From positions 227,816 to 291,815 of the forward strand of contig NZ_WTUY01000005.1 in NCBI RefSeq assembly GCF_009882945.1: DNA of 64,000 nucleotides. The letters run 5' to 3'. Positions 32,836 through 39,725 of the stretch are shown in pieces; position 1 is the stretch's first letter; the number at the start of each line of letters is the position of its first letter. Below the pieces are notes generated by a model. That model was not told the origin of the DNA. It saw only the letters and a program-made list of their open reading frames with translations, and did no database searches. This DNA comes from Alcanivorax sp. DP30. Its GTDB lineage: Bacteria; Pseudomonadota; Gammaproteobacteria; Pseudomonadales; Alcanivoracaceae. The translations under genes and the position numbers were made by a program.

Positions 32836-34695
32836 TTACAGGTGCGGCGCGACCTTGGCGTTGAGATGCTGGATGAAGCGGTCCGGGCCCATTTCACCCA
32901 GTACCCGGGCGTTGGGGACTTCATTACTGGTCGTGTCGAAGAAAACCAGTGCCGGCAGGCCGAGGATGTTGTAGTGCTCCATGATGGCCTGGCTGTCGGC
33001 GTTGATCTCGGTGATGTCCACCCGATAGAGGTCGAAGCCGGTCATTTCCGTCAGTACAGCCTCGTTGCTCAGCGTTTCTTCTTCCAGCACCCTGCAGGCC
33101 ACACACCATTCAGCAAAGAAATCCACCAGCACTGGTTTGTCGGCCCGGCGGGAGGCAGCGAGAGCCTGCTCCAGGGAGGCCTTGCCAATGAGGGTCTGCC
33201 AGGGACCATGATCTTGAGGCGCCGTGTTGTTGGTCTGGTTAACCACCTGCGGTTGCTGGGTCAGCGGCTGGAGCGGCTGTAGTGGATCGCTGCCGCCGCT
33301 CAGGGCGCCGACAATCATGACCGAACCGTAGAGCGCCAGCACCAGCGCCAGACCACGTTTGAGGCGGGCGAGTCCTTCGCCGGCCGCTTCCAGCGCGCCC
33401 AGCTGAACGCCATAGACGGCAAACAGCAAGCCATAGAGTCCCAGAGCGATGGTGTCGTCAATGATGCGACTCAGCAGCCAGATAGCCACGCCAAGCATGA
33501 CTACGCCGAAGAACCTTTTAATCTCCTCCATCCACATACCGGCTCGGGGCAGCAGACTGCCGCCACCAGTGCCGACGATGATCAGCGGAATACCCATGCC
33601 AATGGACAGGGCAAACAGTGAGGCGGCACCGGTGGCGGCGTCCCCGCTGGCGGCCACATAGATCAAGGCGCCGGCAAGAATCGGGGTAACGCAGGGCGAT
33701 ACCACCAGTGCAGAGATGGCACCCATGATCGCGGCACCAATCAGGCTGCCACGTTTTTCCTCGCCGGGTTGATGCAGTTTGTCGCGCAGGAAATGAGGCA
33801 GCTGAAGTTCGTACAGGCCGAACATGGACAGCGCCAGCACGACAAAAATGACCGCTGAGGTAATGATGGCGGCGGGTTGCTGAAGCAGAAACTGCAGATT
33901 GAGTCCGGCGCCGAACAGGGCGACCAGCAAGCCGGCCAGGGTGTAGGGCACAGCCATGCCCAGCACATAGGCGCTGCTGAGTACAAAGCCACGGCTGGCG
34001 CTGGGGTTTTCCTCACCGGCAATGATGCCGGACAGGATCGGCACCATGGGAAACACGCAGGGGGTAAAGGCCAGCAACAGGCCGCCAACGAAGAAAAGTC
34101 CGATGATCAGGCCGATGGACTGATTTTCCATCCACTGGTTGAAGGCGTTGGCGTCTTCGGATTGCAGGGTGTCGAGAAATCCATTGCCGTTACTGACGGG
34201 GCTGGCCGCGCTCGCGGCTGGCGACTTTTTTGTCGGCTGTGGACTGCTGAATTCAAAGGTCTTTTTGGTGGGCGGGTAACAGAGGGTGTCTTCAATGCAG
34301 CCCTGGTAGCGTACTTCCAGGACGGTATCCACCAACGGCACGCTTTTGACCGGTAGTGTCACTCCCACACGATGAAAGTAGACGATCACGTCGCCGAAGA
34401 TCTCGTCGGTCTTGGCCTTGCCTTCCGGCAGGGTAAGGTCTTTGAAGTCGTCCAGTACGTTGCCGTTGGTGTCCTTCAGGGTAAAGCCAAAGCGGTGCTG
34501 ATAAAGGTAAACGTCATCAATTAGCTCAAAATCCAGCAGCAGCTGCTGGTTGTCCCAATCGGCGTCGGTCACCAGCTGGATAGCTTCATCCACGGTAGGC
34601 AGCGGTTCCTCGCCAAAAAAATCCTGTGCCATGGTTGCGGACCATGCCAGCAGTAGTGCTAGTGCGAGCCCCAGTCGTTGCCAGGTTGTATGCAT
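32836..34695 (-). CDS. dsbD: Thiol:disulfide interchange protein DsbD
   Basis: 619 residues. Signal peptide, N-terminal periplasmic domain with the redox pair in YQGCIEDTLCYPP, eight-helix membrane domain with Cys in FTPCVFPMVPI and VVSPCVTPILAG, and C-terminal thioredoxin domain with FAEWCVACRVLEEE. It carries electrons from cytosolic thioredoxin to periplasmic partners. ATG 34695 has GGAGAAGG in front and starts the signal peptide. Divergent from a TlpA-like gene, a plausible electron acceptor. Confidence 0.94.
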   Translation of the reverse strand: MHTTWQRLGLALALLLAWSATMAQDFFGEEPLPTVDEAIQLVTDADWDNQQLLLDFELIDDVYLYQHRFGFTLKDTNGNVLDDFKDLTLPEGKAKTDEIFGDVIVYFHRVGVTLPVKSVPLVDTVLEVRYQGCIEDTLCYPPTKKTFEFSSPQPTKKSPAASAASPVSNGNGFLDTLQSEDANAFNQWMENQSIGLIIGLFFVGGLLLAFTPCVFPMVPILSGIIAGEENPSASRGFVLSSAYVLGMAVPYTLAGLLVALFGAGLNLQFLLQQPAAIITSAVIFVVLALSMFGLYELQLPHFLRDKLHQPGEEKRGSLIGAAIMGAISALVVSPCVTPILAGALIYVAASGDAATGAASLFALSIGMGIPLIIVGTGGGSLLPRAGMWMEEIKRFFGVVMLGVAIWLLSRIIDDTIALGLYGLLFAVYGVQLGALEAAGEGLARLKRGLALVLALYGSVMIVGALSGGSDPLQPLQPLTQQPQVVNQTNNTAPQDHGPWQTLIGKASLEQALAASRRADKPVLVDFFAEWCVACRVLEEETLSNEAVLTEMTGFDLYRVDITEINADSQAIMEHYNILGLPALVFFDTTSNEVPNARVLGEMGPDRFIQHLNAKVAPHL

Positions 34696-34787
34696 TACCT
34701 TCTCCTCAGTCCCCGAACGCATCAAAAAGCGGCACCGCTTTGATGCCTGTATGGCGGATAAGTTTCAGGGCCGATTATTAACTGTGC

Positions 34788-34804
34788 CTTAAGGTTGCTT
34801 TAAG
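34788..34804 (+). promoter_or_regulatory. CTTAAG-N5-TTTAAG direct-repeat box, QseB/PmrA type
   Basis: The two six-base half sites at 34788-34793 and 34799-34804 have the spacing of the PmrA/QseB box (CTTAAG-N5-CTTAAG). They also lie within the dyad TGCCTTAA-N7-TTAAGGCA (34785-34807). It is 43 bases before the TlpA-like start codon, in the gap shared with dsbD. The operon encodes an OmpR-type regulator of this class at 37723. Confidence 0.55.
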
Positions 34805-34846
34805 GCATCCGTAGGAAGCTGTGTTCTCTATTACAAGGAGAACCTC

Positions 34847-35293
34847 ATGCGCTTTCTTCGGGTGCTTGTCCTGCTGGCCATCCCCTGGCTGGCCCACGCT
34901 GAGCCGCTACCATTTTCCCAAGAGGCGGTGGCAGAAGCAAAAGTGATTTATGTGGACTTTTGGGCCAGCTGGTGCGGCCCTTGTCGTCGTTCCTTTCCCT
35001 GGCTGAATCATATGCAAGCCAAATACGGGGACAAAGGCTTCACCGTTATTGGTGTCAACGTGGACCCAGACCGTGAAGACGCCCAGATGTTCCTGGACAG
35101 GTACCCCGCTACCTTCCCCCTGGTATATGACCCGGAAGGGGAGCTGGCTAACCGTTATGCCCTTCAGGGTATGCCCAGTTCGATTCTATTGGGGGCCGAT
35201 GGGGAGGAATTGTCACGGCATATCGGCTTTTCCGAGAAGCACAGGGATGACTACGAGCAGGAAATTGTTCGATTACTGGAGGCGAAACAATGA
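34847..35293 (+). CDS. TlpA-like periplasmic thioredoxin
   Basis: 148 residues. Signal peptide (about 1-18, cleavage near AHA-EP), then a thioredoxin fold with DFWASWCGPCRRSFPW (Cys43, Cys46), GVNVDPDREDAQMFLD and the cis-Pro loop QGMPSSILLG. The CGPC motif and TlpA-style insert indicate a reductant for specific partners rather than a Dsb oxidase. A strong AAGGAGA site precedes ATG 34847. First gene of the DUF4266-DUF3570-ApbE operon, divergent from dsbD, its likely electron donor. Confidence 0.88.
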   Translation: MRFLRVLVLLAIPWLAHAEPLPFSQEAVAEAKVIYVDFWASWCGPCRRSFPWLNHMQAKYGDKGFTVIGVNVDPDREDAQMFLDRYPATFPLVYDPEGELANRYALQGMPSSILLGADGEELSRHIGFSEKHRDDYEQEIVRLLEAKQ

Positions 35294-35517
35294 AAAGTCT
35301 AATCAGTCTTTTGGGCGTGATGACAGTCTTGGGCGCCCTTGCCGGCTGCCAGAATCTGGGGGTACAGCCCTGGGAGCGCGATTTGCTGGCCAAACCGGTG
35401 ATGACACCGGGGGCGGCAGACGGGCTCGACGATGCGCTGGATGACCATATCTATTTCAGCAAGGAAGCGTCCAGTGGCGGGCGCGGTTTTGGCGGCGGCG
35501 GCTGCGGCTGCAACTGA
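35290..35517 (+). CDS. DUF4266 small lipoprotein with C-terminal Cys-x-Cys
   Basis: 75 residues. Lipobox LGALAGC with Cys20, so a 56-residue mature lipoprotein. It contains PWERDLLAKP and DDALDDHIYFSKEASSGG, both typical of DUF4266, and ends GRGFGGGGCGCN. The two cysteines at 72 and 74 next to a glycine run could bind metal or act as a dithiol. Start overlaps the TlpA stop (ATGA), and the DUF3570 gene follows after 10 bases. Function unknown. Confidence 0.85.
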   Translation: MKSLISLLGVMTVLGALAGCQNLGVQPWERDLLAKPVMTPGAADGLDDALDDHIYFSKEASSGGRGFGGGGCGCN

Positions 35518-35527
35518 GGGACGAACC

Positions 35528-36796
35528 ATGAAAAAAATGTTAGACGGAAAGAAGATTGGTGCGGGCCTGGCAGCGGCAACGTGTTCCCTGCTGGGGCAAC
35601 CAGCCATGGCTCAGGATAGCACCGATGCGTGGCAATTTGATTCTGCCGTGCTGTATTACAGTGAGCAGGACAGGGTGACGGCAGTGGAGCCCGTGGTTCG
35701 TGCCAAAAAGCAGTTCCAGGACGAGAGTGAACTGGAAATGAAATTGACCCTGGATACACTTACCGGGGCCTCTCATAACGGCGCCATCACTTCTGACAAA
35801 CCGCAGACCTTTACTTCTCCTTCCGGGAACAGTTCCTATCAAGTGACCAATGAGGTTCCCCTGGATGATGCCTTCAAGGACACCCGGGTAGCCGCCAACA
35901 TGCAATATACCCGTCCGTTCACCCGCAACCTGCGCTGGACCGGCGGTCTCAACTTTTCCAATGAGTATGACTTTACCTCCCTGGGGCTGAATGCCGGTCT
36001 GTTGTGGGACCTGAACAACAAGAACACCACGCTGACGTTTGGGGTGGCCCATGAGGCGGACACCATTGACCCGGTGGGTGGTTCGCCGGTCGGGCTGACG
36101 TTCCAGAGTGACGAGGACAAGACCGATGGCAGTGAAGACAAGTCGATCAATGACTTTCTGATCGGCATGACGCAGGTGATCAACCGCCGCTGGATCATGC
36201 AGTTGAACTACAACCTGTCCGTATCAGATGGGTATCACACCGACCCGTACAAGATTGTCACGGTGGTGGATGCCAACGGCGATCCGCTGGAAGCGGAAAG
36301 TTTCGGCGCCAACGATATTGGTGCCGGCGACGCACAGGTTTTCGAGTTGCGACCGGATTCGCGGACCAAGAATGCCTTGTACTGGGAGAACCGTTATCAC
36401 TTCAACCGGGATGTGCTGGCGGTGGGCTATCGCTTCATGTCCGATGACTGGGGTATCACGTCCCATACCCTGGATGTGAAGTACCGTTTCCAGTTCGATA
36501 ACGGCTGGTACCTGCAGCCCCATGTGCGCTGGTACGATCAGAGCGAGGCAGACTTCTATAAGGAATCCATTACGGCTTCCGAGCTGACATCACTGCAGAA
36601 CAGCCAGGGCGAAGTTTCGGCGGATTACCGTTTGGGTAACCTCACGGATACCACCTATGGGTTCAAGGTCGGCAAGGAGTGGGCCAACAACCAGCAGCTG
36701 AGCCTGCGGGTGGAGAGCTTCACCCAGAGTGGCGACAGCGATGCCTCGGAACTGGATGCACTCATCACTCAGGTCGGGTATACCTTCTACTGGTAA
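35528..36796 (+). CDS. DUF3570 outer-membrane beta-barrel protein with candidate flavinylation motif
   Basis: 422 residues. Signal peptide (cleavage near AMA-QD), then alternating polar/nonpolar strands throughout and a final aromatic residue (VGYTFYW), the mark of an outer-membrane barrel. Residues 76-82 read DTLTGAS, a match to the ApbE flavinylation consensus D-x-x-(S/T)-G-A-(S/T), which would place FMN on Ser82 near the N terminus. A GAGGG site precedes ATG 35528. Lies between the DUF4266 lipoprotein and apbE. The motif match and context are seen; covalent flavin is inferred. Confidence 0.85.
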   Translation: MKKMLDGKKIGAGLAAATCSLLGQPAMAQDSTDAWQFDSAVLYYSEQDRVTAVEPVVRAKKQFQDESELEMKLTLDTLTGASHNGAITSDKPQTFTSPSGNSSYQVTNEVPLDDAFKDTRVAANMQYTRPFTRNLRWTGGLNFSNEYDFTSLGLNAGLLWDLNNKNTTLTFGVAHEADTIDPVGGSPVGLTFQSDEDKTDGSEDKSINDFLIGMTQVINRRWIMQLNYNLSVSDGYHTDPYKIVTVVDANGDPLEAESFGANDIGAGDAQVFELRPDSRTKNALYWENRYHFNRDVLAVGYRFMSDDWGITSHTLDVKYRFQFDNGWYLQPHVRWYDQSEADFYKESITASELTSLQNSQGEVSADYRLGNLTDTTYGFKVGKEWANNQQLSLRVESFTQSGDSDASELDALITQVGYTFYW

Positions 36797-36821
36797 CCGA
36801 TTTGACGATGGTGGAGCCCGG

Positions 36822-37742
36822 ATGAAACAGGGCAGAGATGAAATGTACAAGGCTCTTACCCTGGAGCAGGACGGCCCCCTTTGGCGGGGCCGTTTTGTTG
36901 CCATGGCCAGCCCCTGTGAATGTCTGGTCAGGGGTGTTGATGAAAGCCTGGCACGTGAGGTGGCGGAGTCTGTGGCTGCGGAAGCCTGGCGCATTGAACA
37001 CAAGTATTCCCGCTATCGTGACGACAATCTGGTGGCGGCAATCAATGCCGGTGATCAACAATGGGTGACGCTCGACGAGGAGACGGTCAGGTTGCTGGAT
37101 TTTGCTGACCAGTGCTGGCGTCTCAGTGATGGCGCCTTTGACATCACCTCCGGGGTTCTGCGTCGCGCCTGGCGGTTTGATGGTTCTGATCAAGTGCCCC
37201 AGCCGGAACAGGTGCATGCCCTGTTGCCACTGGTGGGTTGGGACAAGGTGGAGCGGGAGGCCGGCTGTATTCGGTTGCAAAAAGGCATGGAGCTGGATCT
37301 GGGCGGTATCGGCAAGGAATATGCCGTGGACAGTGCTTTTCAGCAGGCAGGTAAACTGACTGATGCCGATCTGCTGGTGAACTTCGGCGGTGATCTGGTG
37401 GCTCGTGCTGCCACATCTCCCTGGCAGGTGGGTATGGAAGGTACCGCAAGGCCCATGGCCGGCCAGTTACAGTTCACCACCGGGGCACTGGCCACCAGTG
37501 GTGACAGCCGGCGTTATCTGCTGCGTAATGGTATTCGATACAGCCATGTGCTGGATCCGCGCAGCGGTTGGCCTGTGGCCGATGCGCCGCGTGCAGTCAC
37601 TGTGTTTGGGCAGCAATGTACCCAGGCGGGGTTATTGTCCACGCTGGCCTTGCTGCAAGGCCGGGATGCGGAAACCATGCTGGGCGACGCTGGTGTACAG
37701 TACTGGATTCAATGGGGGGATGATGCGGCTGTTACTGGTTGA
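36822..37742 (+). CDS. apbE: FAD:protein FMN transferase (ApbE)
   Basis: 306 residues. Transfers FMN from FAD to Ser or Thr of target proteins. Visible: FVAMASPCECLV (AMGT-like start), YSRYRDDNLVAAIN, SDGAFDITSGVL, LDLGGIGKEYAVD, LVNFGGDLVARA and YSHVLDPRSGWPV. Oddly I see no signal peptide or lipobox; ApbE is normally a periplasmic lipoprotein. GGAG before ATG 36822 fixes the start; upstream in-frame codons do not add a signal. A terminator-like hairpin lies inside codons 17-24. Overlaps the regulator gene by 20 bases. Confidence 0.9.
   Translation: MKQGRDEMYKALTLEQDGPLWRGRFVAMASPCECLVRGVDESLAREVAESVAAEAWRIEHKYSRYRDDNLVAAINAGDQQWVTLDEETVRLLDFADQCWRLSDGAFDITSGVLRRAWRFDGSDQVPQPEQVHALLPLVGWDKVEREAGCIRLQKGMELDLGGIGKEYAVDSAFQQAGKLTDADLLVNFGGDLVARAATSPWQVGMEGTARPMAGQLQFTTGALATSGDSRRYLLRNGIRYSHVLDPRSGWPVADAPRAVTVFGQQCTQAGLLSTLALLQGRDAETMLGDAGVQYWIQWGDDAAVTG
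36871..36900 (+). terminator. Terminator-like hairpin inside the start of apbE
   Basis: ACGGCCCC / GGGGCCGT stem with a 7-base loop followed by TTTGTTG, 50 bases into the apbE coding sequence. It has the shape of an intrinsic terminator and could set less transcription of apbE-regulator-kinase than of the upstream genes. Confidence 0.5.
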
Positions 37743-38388
37743 AGATGATGCGCTGCTGGCGGATGGCTTGCAGCGTGCCCTCCGCGCGGAGGGGTATACC
37801 GTCGATCTGGTCGACCGTGGCGACCTGGTCTTGCCTGCGTTGGCTGCAGGCGGGTTTGAGCTGGTGCTCCTTGATTTGGGGTTGCCAGGGCTGGATGGCA
37901 TGGCTGCATTACGTGCCTTGCGTCAGCAAGACAAACAGATTCCCGTGATCATCATCAGTGCCCGGGATGCGCTTGATGACCGCATTACAGGCCTGGATAG
38001 CGGAGCAGACGACTATCTGGTGAAGCCGTTTTCCGCGGTGGAGCTGATTGCCCGTATTCGTGCCCGGCTGCGTCGTCGGGAAGCTCCAGGCAGTGAAATA
38101 CTGACGGTGGGGGATTTGGCGATTGACGCAGCCCGCTTCAGCGTGACCCGTGGTGGAGAGCCGGTCAATCTATCCCGGCGTGAAATGAGCGTGTTGCTGC
38201 AACTGGTGCGTCACCGTGGCCGAGTGCTTACCCGTGATCAGCTCGAACAAGGGCTATATGGCTGGAATGAGGATGTGGAGAGCAATGCGCTGGAAGTGCA
38301 TATCCATCACTTGCGCAAAAAGCTCGGCAGCGGTCTTATCCGCACGGTAAGAGGCGTTGGCTACAGTCTCAGCGGAGATCAGGAATGA
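37723..38388 (+). CDS. OmpR-family response regulator, QseB/PmrA-like
   Basis: 221 residues. Receiver with acidic pair VEDDALL, phospho-acceptor Asp51 (LVLLDLGLPGLDGM), Lys in DYLVKPFSAVEL; C-terminal winged helix with NLSRREMSVLLQLVRHRG, SNALEVHIHHLRKKLG and RTVRGVGYSL. Closest in pattern to QseB/PmrA. ATG 37723 follows GGGGGA and overlaps the end of apbE; its TGA overlaps the kinase ATG. A CTTAAG-type box in front of the operon suggests autoregulation. Confidence 0.9.
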   Translation: MRLLLVEDDALLADGLQRALRAEGYTVDLVDRGDLVLPALAAGGFELVLLDLGLPGLDGMAALRALRQQDKQIPVIIISARDALDDRITGLDSGADDYLVKPFSAVELIARIRARLRRREAPGSEILTVGDLAIDAARFSVTRGGEPVNLSRREMSVLLQLVRHRGRVLTRDQLEQGLYGWNEDVESNALEVHIHHLRKKLGSGLIRTVRGVGYSLSGDQE

Positions 38389-39725
38389 CTTTCTCCATTC
38401 GTCGTTTTCTGGTTGCTTCCATCTTGATCGTGATCCTCGGTGGAGGACTGCTGCTGGGGATTCTTACCTATCGCACGATCTATCATGAACTGGATGAACA
38501 GTACGATGCTGAACTGGTGCAGAGTGCTCACTTGCTGGCGGGTTTCTGGCAGGATGGTCATCCACCGGAGGCCTCCCTTTCTGCGCTGGATAGTCAGGAA
38601 TCCCGCTATCTGCGCTATTTTATCTACCAGCTATGGCAGAGCGGCAAACTGGTTTCTGCCAGTGAAGGCTCTCCTGAATCTCCCCTGGTTGCGCTCAATG
38701 AGCGGCCCCATTATGAGGAAACCAAAGGCTGGCACGCCTATTCGTTACCCCTTTCGAATAATCGCTGGCTGATCCTGGCAGAGAGTGACTATGCCCGCCA
38801 TTCCATGGTGAAAAATGTGGCGGGTTCTCTGCTCGCCCCGTACTTGATCAGTGTGCCTTTCGTGATGTTGCTGGTGTGGCTGGCGATTCGTCTTGGTCTG
38901 TCGCCGTTGTCGGATCTTGCCCGCTCGGTGAGCCGCCGATCCACGGATAACCTGACGCCGTTAACGGGGGGCAAGCAGGTACGTGAATTGGAACCGGTGA
39001 AAGAGGCGATCAATGCCTTGTTGCAACGCCTGGACGCTGGTATCGAGCGTGAAAAGCGGTTTACTGCAGATGCTGCCCATGAGTTAAGGACCTTGCTGAT
39101 GGTGCTGCGATTGCACGCTGAGAACGCCCGCTCCCTGTCGGATCCGCAACTACGGGACGAATCCCTGCAAGGGCTGCAGGAAGCGGTAGGGCGCGCTGAG
39201 CGAATGCTTGAGCAGTTGCTGGTGCTGGCGCGGCTTGATCCTGCTCAGGGCCCACCTGAGCAGGGTGCCTGTGCAGATATCCTCAGGGTGGCAAGGGATA
39301 CGTTGGCCTCGCTGGTGCCCCTGGGGGATCGTTTCAACCAGCAGCTTGTGTTGTGTCTGGAGGAATCCCTTCTGGTGGCAATGCCTGAGGAAGCCCTGCA
39401 GCTGGTGCTGCGTAACCTGATCGACAACGCCTGCCGCTATGCCTCGCCTGGCGTGATACAGGTGAATGCGGAGCGGCAGGGCCGTCAGGTCTCTATTGAA
39501 ATCTCAGACAGTGGTGAGGGGTTGAGCGAAGAGCAATGGCAGCGCTATCGGGAACGTTTCAGTCGGGGGCATTCGGATAGCGATGGAGCCGGGCTGGGTT
39601 TGTCCATCGTCAATGGTCTGCTCTCTCTTTATGGCGGTAGTCTGACTTACCGTAAACGGTGTGCGCAGACTCCCGCAGCTGCTATCGTGTTACTCCCTGC
39701 CGCAACTCAGAAGCCTGGGCTATAG
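38385..39725 (+). CDS. QseC/PmrB-like sensor histidine kinase with altered H-box
   Basis: 446 residues. Two membrane helices (about 9-30 and 150-172) flank a periplasmic sensor of about 115 residues; HAMP-like linker; HisKA with His232; HATPase with NLIDNACRYA, ISDSGEGL and GAGLGLSIV intact. The H-box reads AAHELRTLLMVLRLHAE: the nearly invariant Pro five residues after His is Leu237 (TTG, 39093-39095). That proline matters for phosphatase/kinase balance in related kinases. Coupled to the regulator by an ATGA overlap. Signal unknown. Confidence 0.88.
   Translation: MTFSIRRFLVASILIVILGGGLLLGILTYRTIYHELDEQYDAELVQSAHLLAGFWQDGHPPEASLSALDSQESRYLRYFIYQLWQSGKLVSASEGSPESPLVALNERPHYEETKGWHAYSLPLSNNRWLILAESDYARHSMVKNVAGSLLAPYLISVPFVMLLVWLAIRLGLSPLSDLARSVSRRSTDNLTPLTGGKQVRELEPVKEAINALLQRLDAGIEREKRFTADAAHELRTLLMVLRLHAENARSLSDPQLRDESLQGLQEAVGRAERMLEQLLVLARLDPAQGPPEQGACADILRVARDTLASLVPLGDRFNQQLVLCLEESLLVAMPEEALQLVLRNLIDNACRYASPGVIQVNAERQGRQVSIEISDSGEGLSEEQWQRYRERFSRGHSDSDGAGLGLSIVNGLLSLYGGSLTYRKRCAQTPAAAIVLLPAATQKPGL

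Follow-up and report, generated by a model that had tools for sequence, protein, structure and literature searches.

What is built by an operon that joins an outer-membrane protein of the DUF3570 family to a periplasmic redoxin, a small DUF4266 lipoprotein, the flavin transferase ApbE and a two-component regulatory pair, and on which side of the envelope would the flavin end up? The question is raised by a 64-kb window (the whole stretch of DNA analysed here; G000:C23:227816-291815) of the 3.6-Mb genome of Alcanivorax sp. DP30, a member of a genus of marine oil-degrading bacteria, in which such a gene set lies divergent from dsbD. The locus is a real, conserved operon of a known kind, and we give roughly even chances to the view that it is a two-component-regulated module building a flavin-based outlet for electrons at the external face of the outer membrane. 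Most likely, it would serve to reduce an acceptor outside the cell, perhaps Fe(III), at the surface. Translations and Pfam profiles confirmed the seven genes, their order and their families as given in an original prediction made from this DNA, including the divergent dsbD and the tight packing of the other six genes, with overlaps or gaps of no more than 25 bases; the regulators, described there as QseBC-like, score as PmrA/QseB and PmrB/QseC types. The locus comprises:

32836-34725, minus strand: dsbD, resident thiol-disulfide interchange protein and likely electron donor (Pfam DsbD_N, DsbD_TM, Thioredoxin_7).
34788-34804, plus strand: PmrA-type box CTTAAGGTTGCTTTAAG (YTTAAK-N5-YTTAAK), within which lies the BqsR operator TTAAG-N6-TTAAG; it is predicted to act as an activator site and precedes tlpA by about 60 bp.
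34847-35293, plus strand: tlpA, TlpA/ResA-like periplasmic redoxin with WCGPC (PF08534, 6.7e-21).
35290-35517, plus strand: DUF4266 lipoprotein of 75 amino acids (aa) with the C-terminus GGGGCGCN (CXC) (PF14086, 1.5e-21).
35528-36796, plus strand: DUF3570 outer-membrane barrel, predicted flavoprotein (PF12094, 8e-121; AlphaFold model; Foldseek comparison with outer-membrane barrels).
35528-35611, plus strand: Sec-type signal peptide of DUF3570, weakly hydrophobic and conserved; cleavage site read by eye.
35753-35773, plus strand: DTLTGAS, residues 76-82 of DUF3570, ApbE target motif with flavin mononucleotide (FMN) expected on Ser82 (motif as defined in the consulted part of PMC8238504).
36822-37742, plus strand: apbE, flavin adenine dinucleotide (FAD):protein FMN transferase without signal peptide, predicted to be cytosolic (PF02424, 1.4e-60).
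37720-38388, plus strand: PmrA/QseB-type response regulator, start ATG 37720 or 37723; best-scoring models PmrA and QseB.
38385-39725, plus strand: PmrB/QseC-type sensor kinase (profile matches).

From tlpA to the kinase the spacings are, in order, an overlap of 4, a gap of 10, a gap of 25, an overlap of 20-23 and an overlap of 4 bases. The gap between dsbD and tlpA measures 121 bp from the listed dsbD TTG and 151 bp from the ATG at 34695, which, like the ATG at 34722, is an alternative start codon of dsbD and is followed by a signal-like sequence. The nearest named record is that of Alcanivorax sp. DSM 26293, with a DUF3570 identity of 99%.

Two branches of DUF3570 are distinguished below: type A, to which the window protein belongs, and type B, whose flavin site departs from the canonical one, in most by Ser in place of Gly. 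The ApbE encoded next to the type A protein appears not to be exported and should act in the cytosol. Among the three ApbEs of the source genome, that of the operon has no signal peptide and none of the hydrophobic sequence that precedes the domain in exported ApbEs, whereas the other two (L004 and L005) carry signal sequences; the gene adjoining the L004 ApbE presumably encodes NqrF. Altogether 105 ApbEs (104 distinct) adjoin type A DUF3570 genes, of which 88 could be scored and 17 lack the anchor pattern. At the same threshold, a hydrophobic N-terminal stretch was present in 1 of the 88 scored operon ApbEs and in 29 of 32 comparators, these being the own-genome pair and the 30 best-scoring loci rather than a random sample, and mostly scored, unlike the operon ApbEs, on their first 60 residues. 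The single exception, L248, has a long upstream extension of its open reading frame (ORF). By eye, no hydrophobic start is seen in 15 of the 17 unscored ApbEs, and the other two (L252 and L058) are long ORFs of uncertain start. In a phylogenetic tree that took in 31 of the 105, the operon ApbEs formed one clade apart from 32 others with a support of 100/100. Cytosolic ApbEs, acting on cytosolic substrates, are known from an ApbE review (PMC12052999, consulted part).

FMN is probably fixed to DUF3570 in the cytosol before export, as suggested by the combination of this ApbE with the weak and conserved DUF3570 signal peptide. In the named loci, the median best 12-residue Kyte-Doolittle value of the signal peptides is 1.84 for DUF3570 (n=80), lower than the 2.49 of DUF4266 (n=72; p 7e-22) and the 2.52 of TlpA (n=63; p 8e-21), a comparison that involves hydropathy windows of unequal length across the protein families and to that extent counts against loading before export. 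In the class set, the signal peptides of type A DUF3570 are again less hydrophobic than those of type B (1.72, n=64, vs 2.38, n=32; p 2e-11). Moreover, L14, A17 and L21 of the type A signal peptide are conserved at 91%, 96% and 95%, respectively, which is unusual for such a sequence. Loading before export also agrees with the behaviour of the Chlorobium protein, which, according to the consulted part of the report, was flavinylated upon signal-truncated co-expression in E. coli and recovered mostly in the lysate pellet (PMC8238504). On the other side, an RR pair occurs in 9 of the 80 DUF3570 signal peptides, for which Tat export is possible, and Sec export of flavin-bearing chains is not mentioned in the ApbE literature examined, a literature in which no dedicated search for it was made. 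The fuller scenario, in which the barrel would be loaded with FMN in the cytosol ahead of Sec, through a co-evolved clade of non-exported ApbEs and a weak signal peptide, and would serve as a heme-free, thiol-fed outlet at the surface and thereby as the flavin equivalent of a porin-cytochrome conduit, with the type B branch, which has ordinary signal peptides, a DxxSSAS site and in some genomes a nearby exported ApbE, reaching the same end by loading in the periplasm, is one that we advance tentatively, the balance lying somewhat against it. If true, an outer-membrane flavoprotein would receive its cofactor ahead of Sec export, an unexpected way of assembling such a protein.

The window DUF3570 carries a single motif of the DxxTGAS type, DTLTGAS, ending in Ser82. 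Of 80 named relatives, 79 have D..[ST]G[AS][ST] where the motif aligns, and 71 the strict [ST]GA[ST]; counted within 90 residues, the strict motif occurs once in 69 of these relatives, twice in 2 and not at all in 9. In Chlorobium, as described in the part of the survey consulted, DUF3570 is flavinylated by its own ApbE at two [S/T]GA[S/T] sites (PMC8238504); a two-site arrangement was considered here too and rejected because the window protein has one, a departure from the published case that weighs against our reading. As judged from the translation, mature DUF3570 contains no cysteine, so that FMN would be its only redox group.

An AlphaFold2 model of DUF3570 built from 52 sequences (predicted local distance difference test score 94.3, predicted template modelling score 0.88) is a barrel in which we counted 16 membrane-length strands. 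The Foldseek matches listed were to Occ/Opd, FadL, AlgE and OmpG barrels, with query template modelling scores of 0.34-0.47, and included no close structural homologue. Because the number of strands is even, both termini lie on the same side of the model; the turns on that side comprise 2-5 residues, and the opposite side bears four long loops of 37, 22, 42 and 33 residues. The flavin motif sits where strand 3 ends, on the side of the long loops. Outer-membrane barrels usually have periplasmic termini and long loops outside. By this rule and the loop lengths, the motif would fall on the extracellular side, and we infer that the DUF3570 flavin site faces the outside of the cell. The distribution of conserved positions agrees with an outward site: 65 positions reach a conservation of at least 95% in the 52 sequences, and 56 of them belong to the outer half or the outer loops (outer strand half, 23 of 102; outer loops, 33 of 150; inner half, 8 of 107; inner turns, 1 of 35). 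A point against it is that the placement depends on strand parity and loop lengths in an FMN-free model.

The box upstream of tlpA is the only match to YTTAAK-N5-YTTAAK in the window, where 0.01 would be expected. There are 3 matches in the whole genome and 5 to the reversed pattern; since the pattern is not enriched genome-wide, it is the position that counts. According to the consulted parts of the respective papers, YTTAAK is the half-site of PmrA, of which the box holds two (PMC10927774), and BqsR, a regulator that responds to Fe(II), has TTAAG-N6-TTAAG as its operator (PMC4682146). The operon thus combines a regulator of this family with a predicted direct-repeat operator in the promoter, as expected of a PmrA/BqsR-type regulon. 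After 18 of the 80 named loci were set aside (no tlpA recognised upstream, or a contig edge), the strict box was found on either strand in 28 of 62 and the core TTAA-N7-TTAA in 45 of 62, mostly 45-81 bp upstream of tlpA, as compared to 0.35 and 2.35, respectively, in first-order Markov resamples. In type B loci, the corresponding counts are 0 of 29 and 1 of 29. Regulator homologs with a median identity of 47% were matched in 30 of the 80 named loci. Two observations weigh against our reading: the box is clade-limited, being present among the more distant type A class loci, window included, in only 6 of 41 (strict) or 9 of 41 (core), and of the 55 untruncated named loci only 25 have a window-like regulator no farther than 4.5 kb away, 21 of them together with the kinase (blastp against the window proteins, E <= 1e-20). 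The sensor regions of the kinases are diverse in an alignment whose window row is a wrong ORF, and the idea that they are obvious iron sensors was set aside. The operator and the two-component pair offer a route to the inducing signal and thence to the physiological acceptor.

Within Alcanivorax, the box, the two-component pair and the redox genes behave as a single accessory module. Of 17 genomes of the genus, 8 have an intact type A DUF3570 and 1 a broken one; in all 8 congeners without it, dsbD is followed directly by a DUF2333 gene, and neither a match to tlpA, DUF4266, the regulator or the kinase nor a box was found at the dsbD site, the only place searched for the pair in these genomes. 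It is this joint absence of the tlpA-to-kinase block and the box in 8 of 8 congeners that identifies the box, regulators and redox genes as one unit. The original prediction had included dsbD as a specific member of the system. That part was rejected because a dsbD match is present in 24 of 24 genomes of the family, with or without the operon, and because the DUF2333 gene adjoins dsbD in the operon-free congeners: dsbD is a resident gene. Its match is near full length in 22 of the 24, one of these 22 genes having an internal stop; the source genome has a single near-full-length match.

Several individual genomes show partial states. In one congener, dsbD contains an in-frame TAA although the operon is intact (L303; G378:C18:171819-173705). 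In another, DUF3570 is split by a stop codon, and tlpA, DUF4266, apbE and the regulators still adjoin it (L276/L290; G383:C1:2290546-2291708). A relative from another genus (L310; G386) keeps a PmrA/QseB-type regulator and a kinase beside dsbD and has no DUF3570, which suggests loss of the redox genes alone.

Beyond the genus, the core recurs: DUF4266, TlpA and ApbE surround DUF3570 in 44 of 55 untruncated named loci, a recognised TlpA being missing in 7 and a recognised ApbE in 4, so the arrangement goes beyond chance, and the neighbourhood is conserved outside the source genome, as the original prediction required. Of 369 class genomes, 95 carry DUF3570 and 90 DUF4266 (the latter counted with length and CXC filters or an independent Pfam profile); the 90 are all among the 95, so that DUF4266 never occurs without DUF3570 in this set. 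The C-terminal CXC is present in 187 of 187 distinct short DUF4266 homologs of the fetched loci, 173 of which end in GGCGCN. For these comparisons, 100 regions were fetched, fewer than the DUF3570 matches listed in the class genomes; together with the window and L003 they yielded 105 DUF3570 ORFs, of which 97 were aligned. Five loci belong to both the class and the named/relatives sets (L040=L233, L044=L249, L184=L269, L185=L273 and L186=L272). Candidate DUF4266-DUF3570 or DUF4266-TlpA gene fusions were discarded, the apparent matches being a remnant ORF (L095) that carries part of DUF3570 and was caught by the DUF4266 profiles. As to plasmid carriage, matches were confined to 3 Vibrio records with a size of about 1.85 Mb, remote at 28.7% identity. 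L036, L047 and L059 encode long DUF3570 proteins (about 900 residues) in which the site reads DTWSGATP, together with a DUF4266 that ends in CGCY. A DUF1501-type protein lies beside type A DUF3570 in L068, L070, L074, L075, L077, L078, L081, L082, L084, L085 and L087; Pfam, applied to L087 only, supports the assignment there, and a partner of about 550 aa is present in 10 of these 11 loci.

If the operon builds a surface outlet, the following sequence of events can be envisaged. The operon-encoded PmrA/BqsR-type regulator would bind its box, 60 bp ahead of tlpA, and turn on the operon, a step proposed from the box itself and from the joint presence and absence of its genes. DUF3570 would be made with its weak signal peptide, and the cytosolic ApbE, given its missing signal peptide and the target motif, would attach FMN to Ser82 before export. 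Sec and the barrel assembly machinery (BAM) would place the barrel with the FMN site at its outer mouth, as the confident model suggests. Resident DsbD would reduce TlpA, and TlpA the C-terminal Cys-Gly-Cys of DUF4266, whose flexible glycine-rich tail would in turn reduce the FMN. In the last and weakest step, FMN would pass its electrons to an acceptor outside the cell, most likely to Fe(III) that is to be assimilated. A surface electron outlet would then be open to bacteria that lack multiheme conduits. The electron path from DsbD through TlpA and DUF4266 to a flavinylated DUF3570 had been put forward in the original prediction and is essentially the model of Meheust et al. 2021 (PMC8238504). 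Apart from dsbD as a part of the module, it agrees with the anatomy of the locus and draws partial support from the target motif, the cysteine-free barrel and the predicted outward position of the motif. What the prediction overlooked is the lack of a signal peptide in ApbE and the two-component pair with a matching operator that co-varies with the operon.

The choice of Fe(III) as the acceptor, for uptake, finds tentative support in three lines of evidence: the operator family, the VIT1 ferrous transporters encoded in 25 clusters of the published flavinylation survey (PMC8238504, consulted part), and a set of loci with iron genes. In 10 of 145 loci, genes for a cupredoxin (PF13473 in L208), an EfeU-like permease (NF041756; E 8e-6 in L207 and 0.0017 in L208, both far below the curated cut-off) and a probable outer-membrane protein all lie within 5 kb. 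This trio is not found beside the window operon, and the iron-linked loci are presumably for the most part those of related Alteromonadales and thus not independent, both of which detract from iron. An acceptor other than iron, such as copper, quinone or humic compounds, or hypochlorous or sulfoxide damage, is the likeliest of the alternatives. MsrPQ-like genes occur near 5 loci, iron genes are missing from the 5 kb around most loci, and the PmrA/BqsR regulator and operator family answers to signals besides iron, which also tells against our preferred acceptor. Given that the transporter that recurs, where there is one, is an iron permease of EfeU-like type accompanied by a cupredoxin, and given the VIT1 clusters, we regard a non-iron acceptor as unlikely, if with appreciable weight.

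Another possibility is that TlpA and DUF4266 aid the assembly or quality control of the barrel, with the flavin fed by other means or acting as a sensor. It draws on the type B branch, in which DUF4266 and TlpA stay with DUF3570 despite an altered flavin site and an ApbE that is nearby in some genomes only, so that a canonical site is not strictly required for the thiol pair to be present. The source genome itself has a paralogous type B cluster about 51 kb outside the window (G000:C23:161-177 kb; L003 1972-9247 and L170 11448-12455), with an HZS-alpha-like lipoprotein carrying two CxxCH, two probable outer-membrane proteins, TlpA, DUF4266 and a DUF3570 with the DxxSxAS-type site DEVSAASIDV. 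By our reading of the matches, type B DUF3570 has an ApbE about 30 kb away or less on its contig in 14 of 32 genomes, and 11 of the 12 for which a locus was fetched pass the signal-peptide threshold. In a pattern scan of eight stretches covering the source type B cluster and six in other genomes, D..[ST][GS]A[ST] was found in ORFs of at least 100 aa only in DUF3570, plus one match in L175. For the type B branch, we predict that flavin is attached in the periplasm, at a motif of relaxed sequence. An assembly role of the thiol pair appears rather improbable to us: the mature DUF3570, having no cysteine, offers no disulfide to a thiol chaperone, and the absolutely C-terminal CXC of DUF4266 suits a mobile redox tail.

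The L003/L170 cluster further encodes an exported ApbE, an SH3 outer-membrane protein and CxxCH proteins with weak DUF1585/1588-like and clear HZS-alpha-like domains, and a similar layout recurs in L172 and L173. Two by-eye candidates for DUF1501 in type B clusters were withdrawn, as they had no Pfam match.

Finally, that the cytosolic ApbE modifies a cytosolic protein, as the known Klebsiella enzyme does with fumarate reductase (PMC12052999, consulted part), and that DUF3570 is served by one of the two ApbEs with signal peptides elsewhere in the genome, is improbable, because 87 of 88 scored ApbEs adjoining type A DUF3570 lack a hydrophobic start, which ties the cytosolic enzyme to DUF3570, because the cluster ApbE of Chlorobium flavinylated its own DUF3570 in the signal-truncated co-expression (PMC8238504, consulted part), and because, once the barrel is inserted, a periplasmic enzyme could hardly reach a loop on its outer side.

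How does the surface-outlet module compare with known systems? The closest is that of Meheust et al., eLife 2021 (PMC8238504), the sole match for DUF3570/DUF4266 in our full-text literature search. In its consulted part, the survey reports 285 DsbD flavinylation clusters, of which 227 have DUF3570, 221 DUF4266 and 183 a thioredoxin-like protein, and proposes a thioredoxin/flavin hybrid fed by DsbD, the function of which is left open. The statement in the original prediction that these families have no defined function therefore holds for function, but flavinylation of DUF3570 had already been published there. A 2024 follow-up contains AlphaFold models of several flavinylated domains, none of them of DUF3570 in the section examined (PMC11334425). 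The window shares with the Meheust system the gene families, the flavinylation motif, dsbD next door and the C-terminal CXC of DUF4266; accordingly, a strict motif, an apbE in the cluster, a CXC-bearing DUF4266 with a thioredoxin-like protein and an adjacent, if resident, dsbD are all present. It differs in that its TlpA is a redoxin (PF08534) without PF13899 (Thioredoxin_7) among its matches, and in the ApbE without signal peptide and the dedicated two-component pair with an operator, neither of which we found in the consulted part of that paper. With the PmrAB, QseBC and BqsRS regulons the window shares the regulator family (PmrA and QseB models), the BqsR site and two PmrA half-sites (PMC4682146, PMC10927774, consulted parts). 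The target here, by contrast, is a redox operon, and ApbE was absent from the literature on PmrA/QseB/BqsR-type regulators among the matches listed. Porin-cytochrome conduits (MtrCAB) also carry electrons across the outer membrane through a barrel. Here, flavin and thiols would replace the hemes, and no CxxCH heme site was found in the TlpA, DUF4266 or DUF3570 translations, which sets the module apart from that class. The lack of a signal peptide is shared with the cytosolic ApbE of Klebsiella, whose substrate is a soluble cytosolic fumarate reductase, whereas here it would be an exported outer-membrane barrel (PMC12052999, consulted part). Against this background, three new points stand out as the most informative: a non-exported ApbE that has a weak-signal substrate, the predicted outward flavin site, and the operator with a co-varying two-component pair. 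With DUF3570 in about a quarter of the sampled class genomes (95/369), these results make both its function and the place of flavin attachment directly testable.

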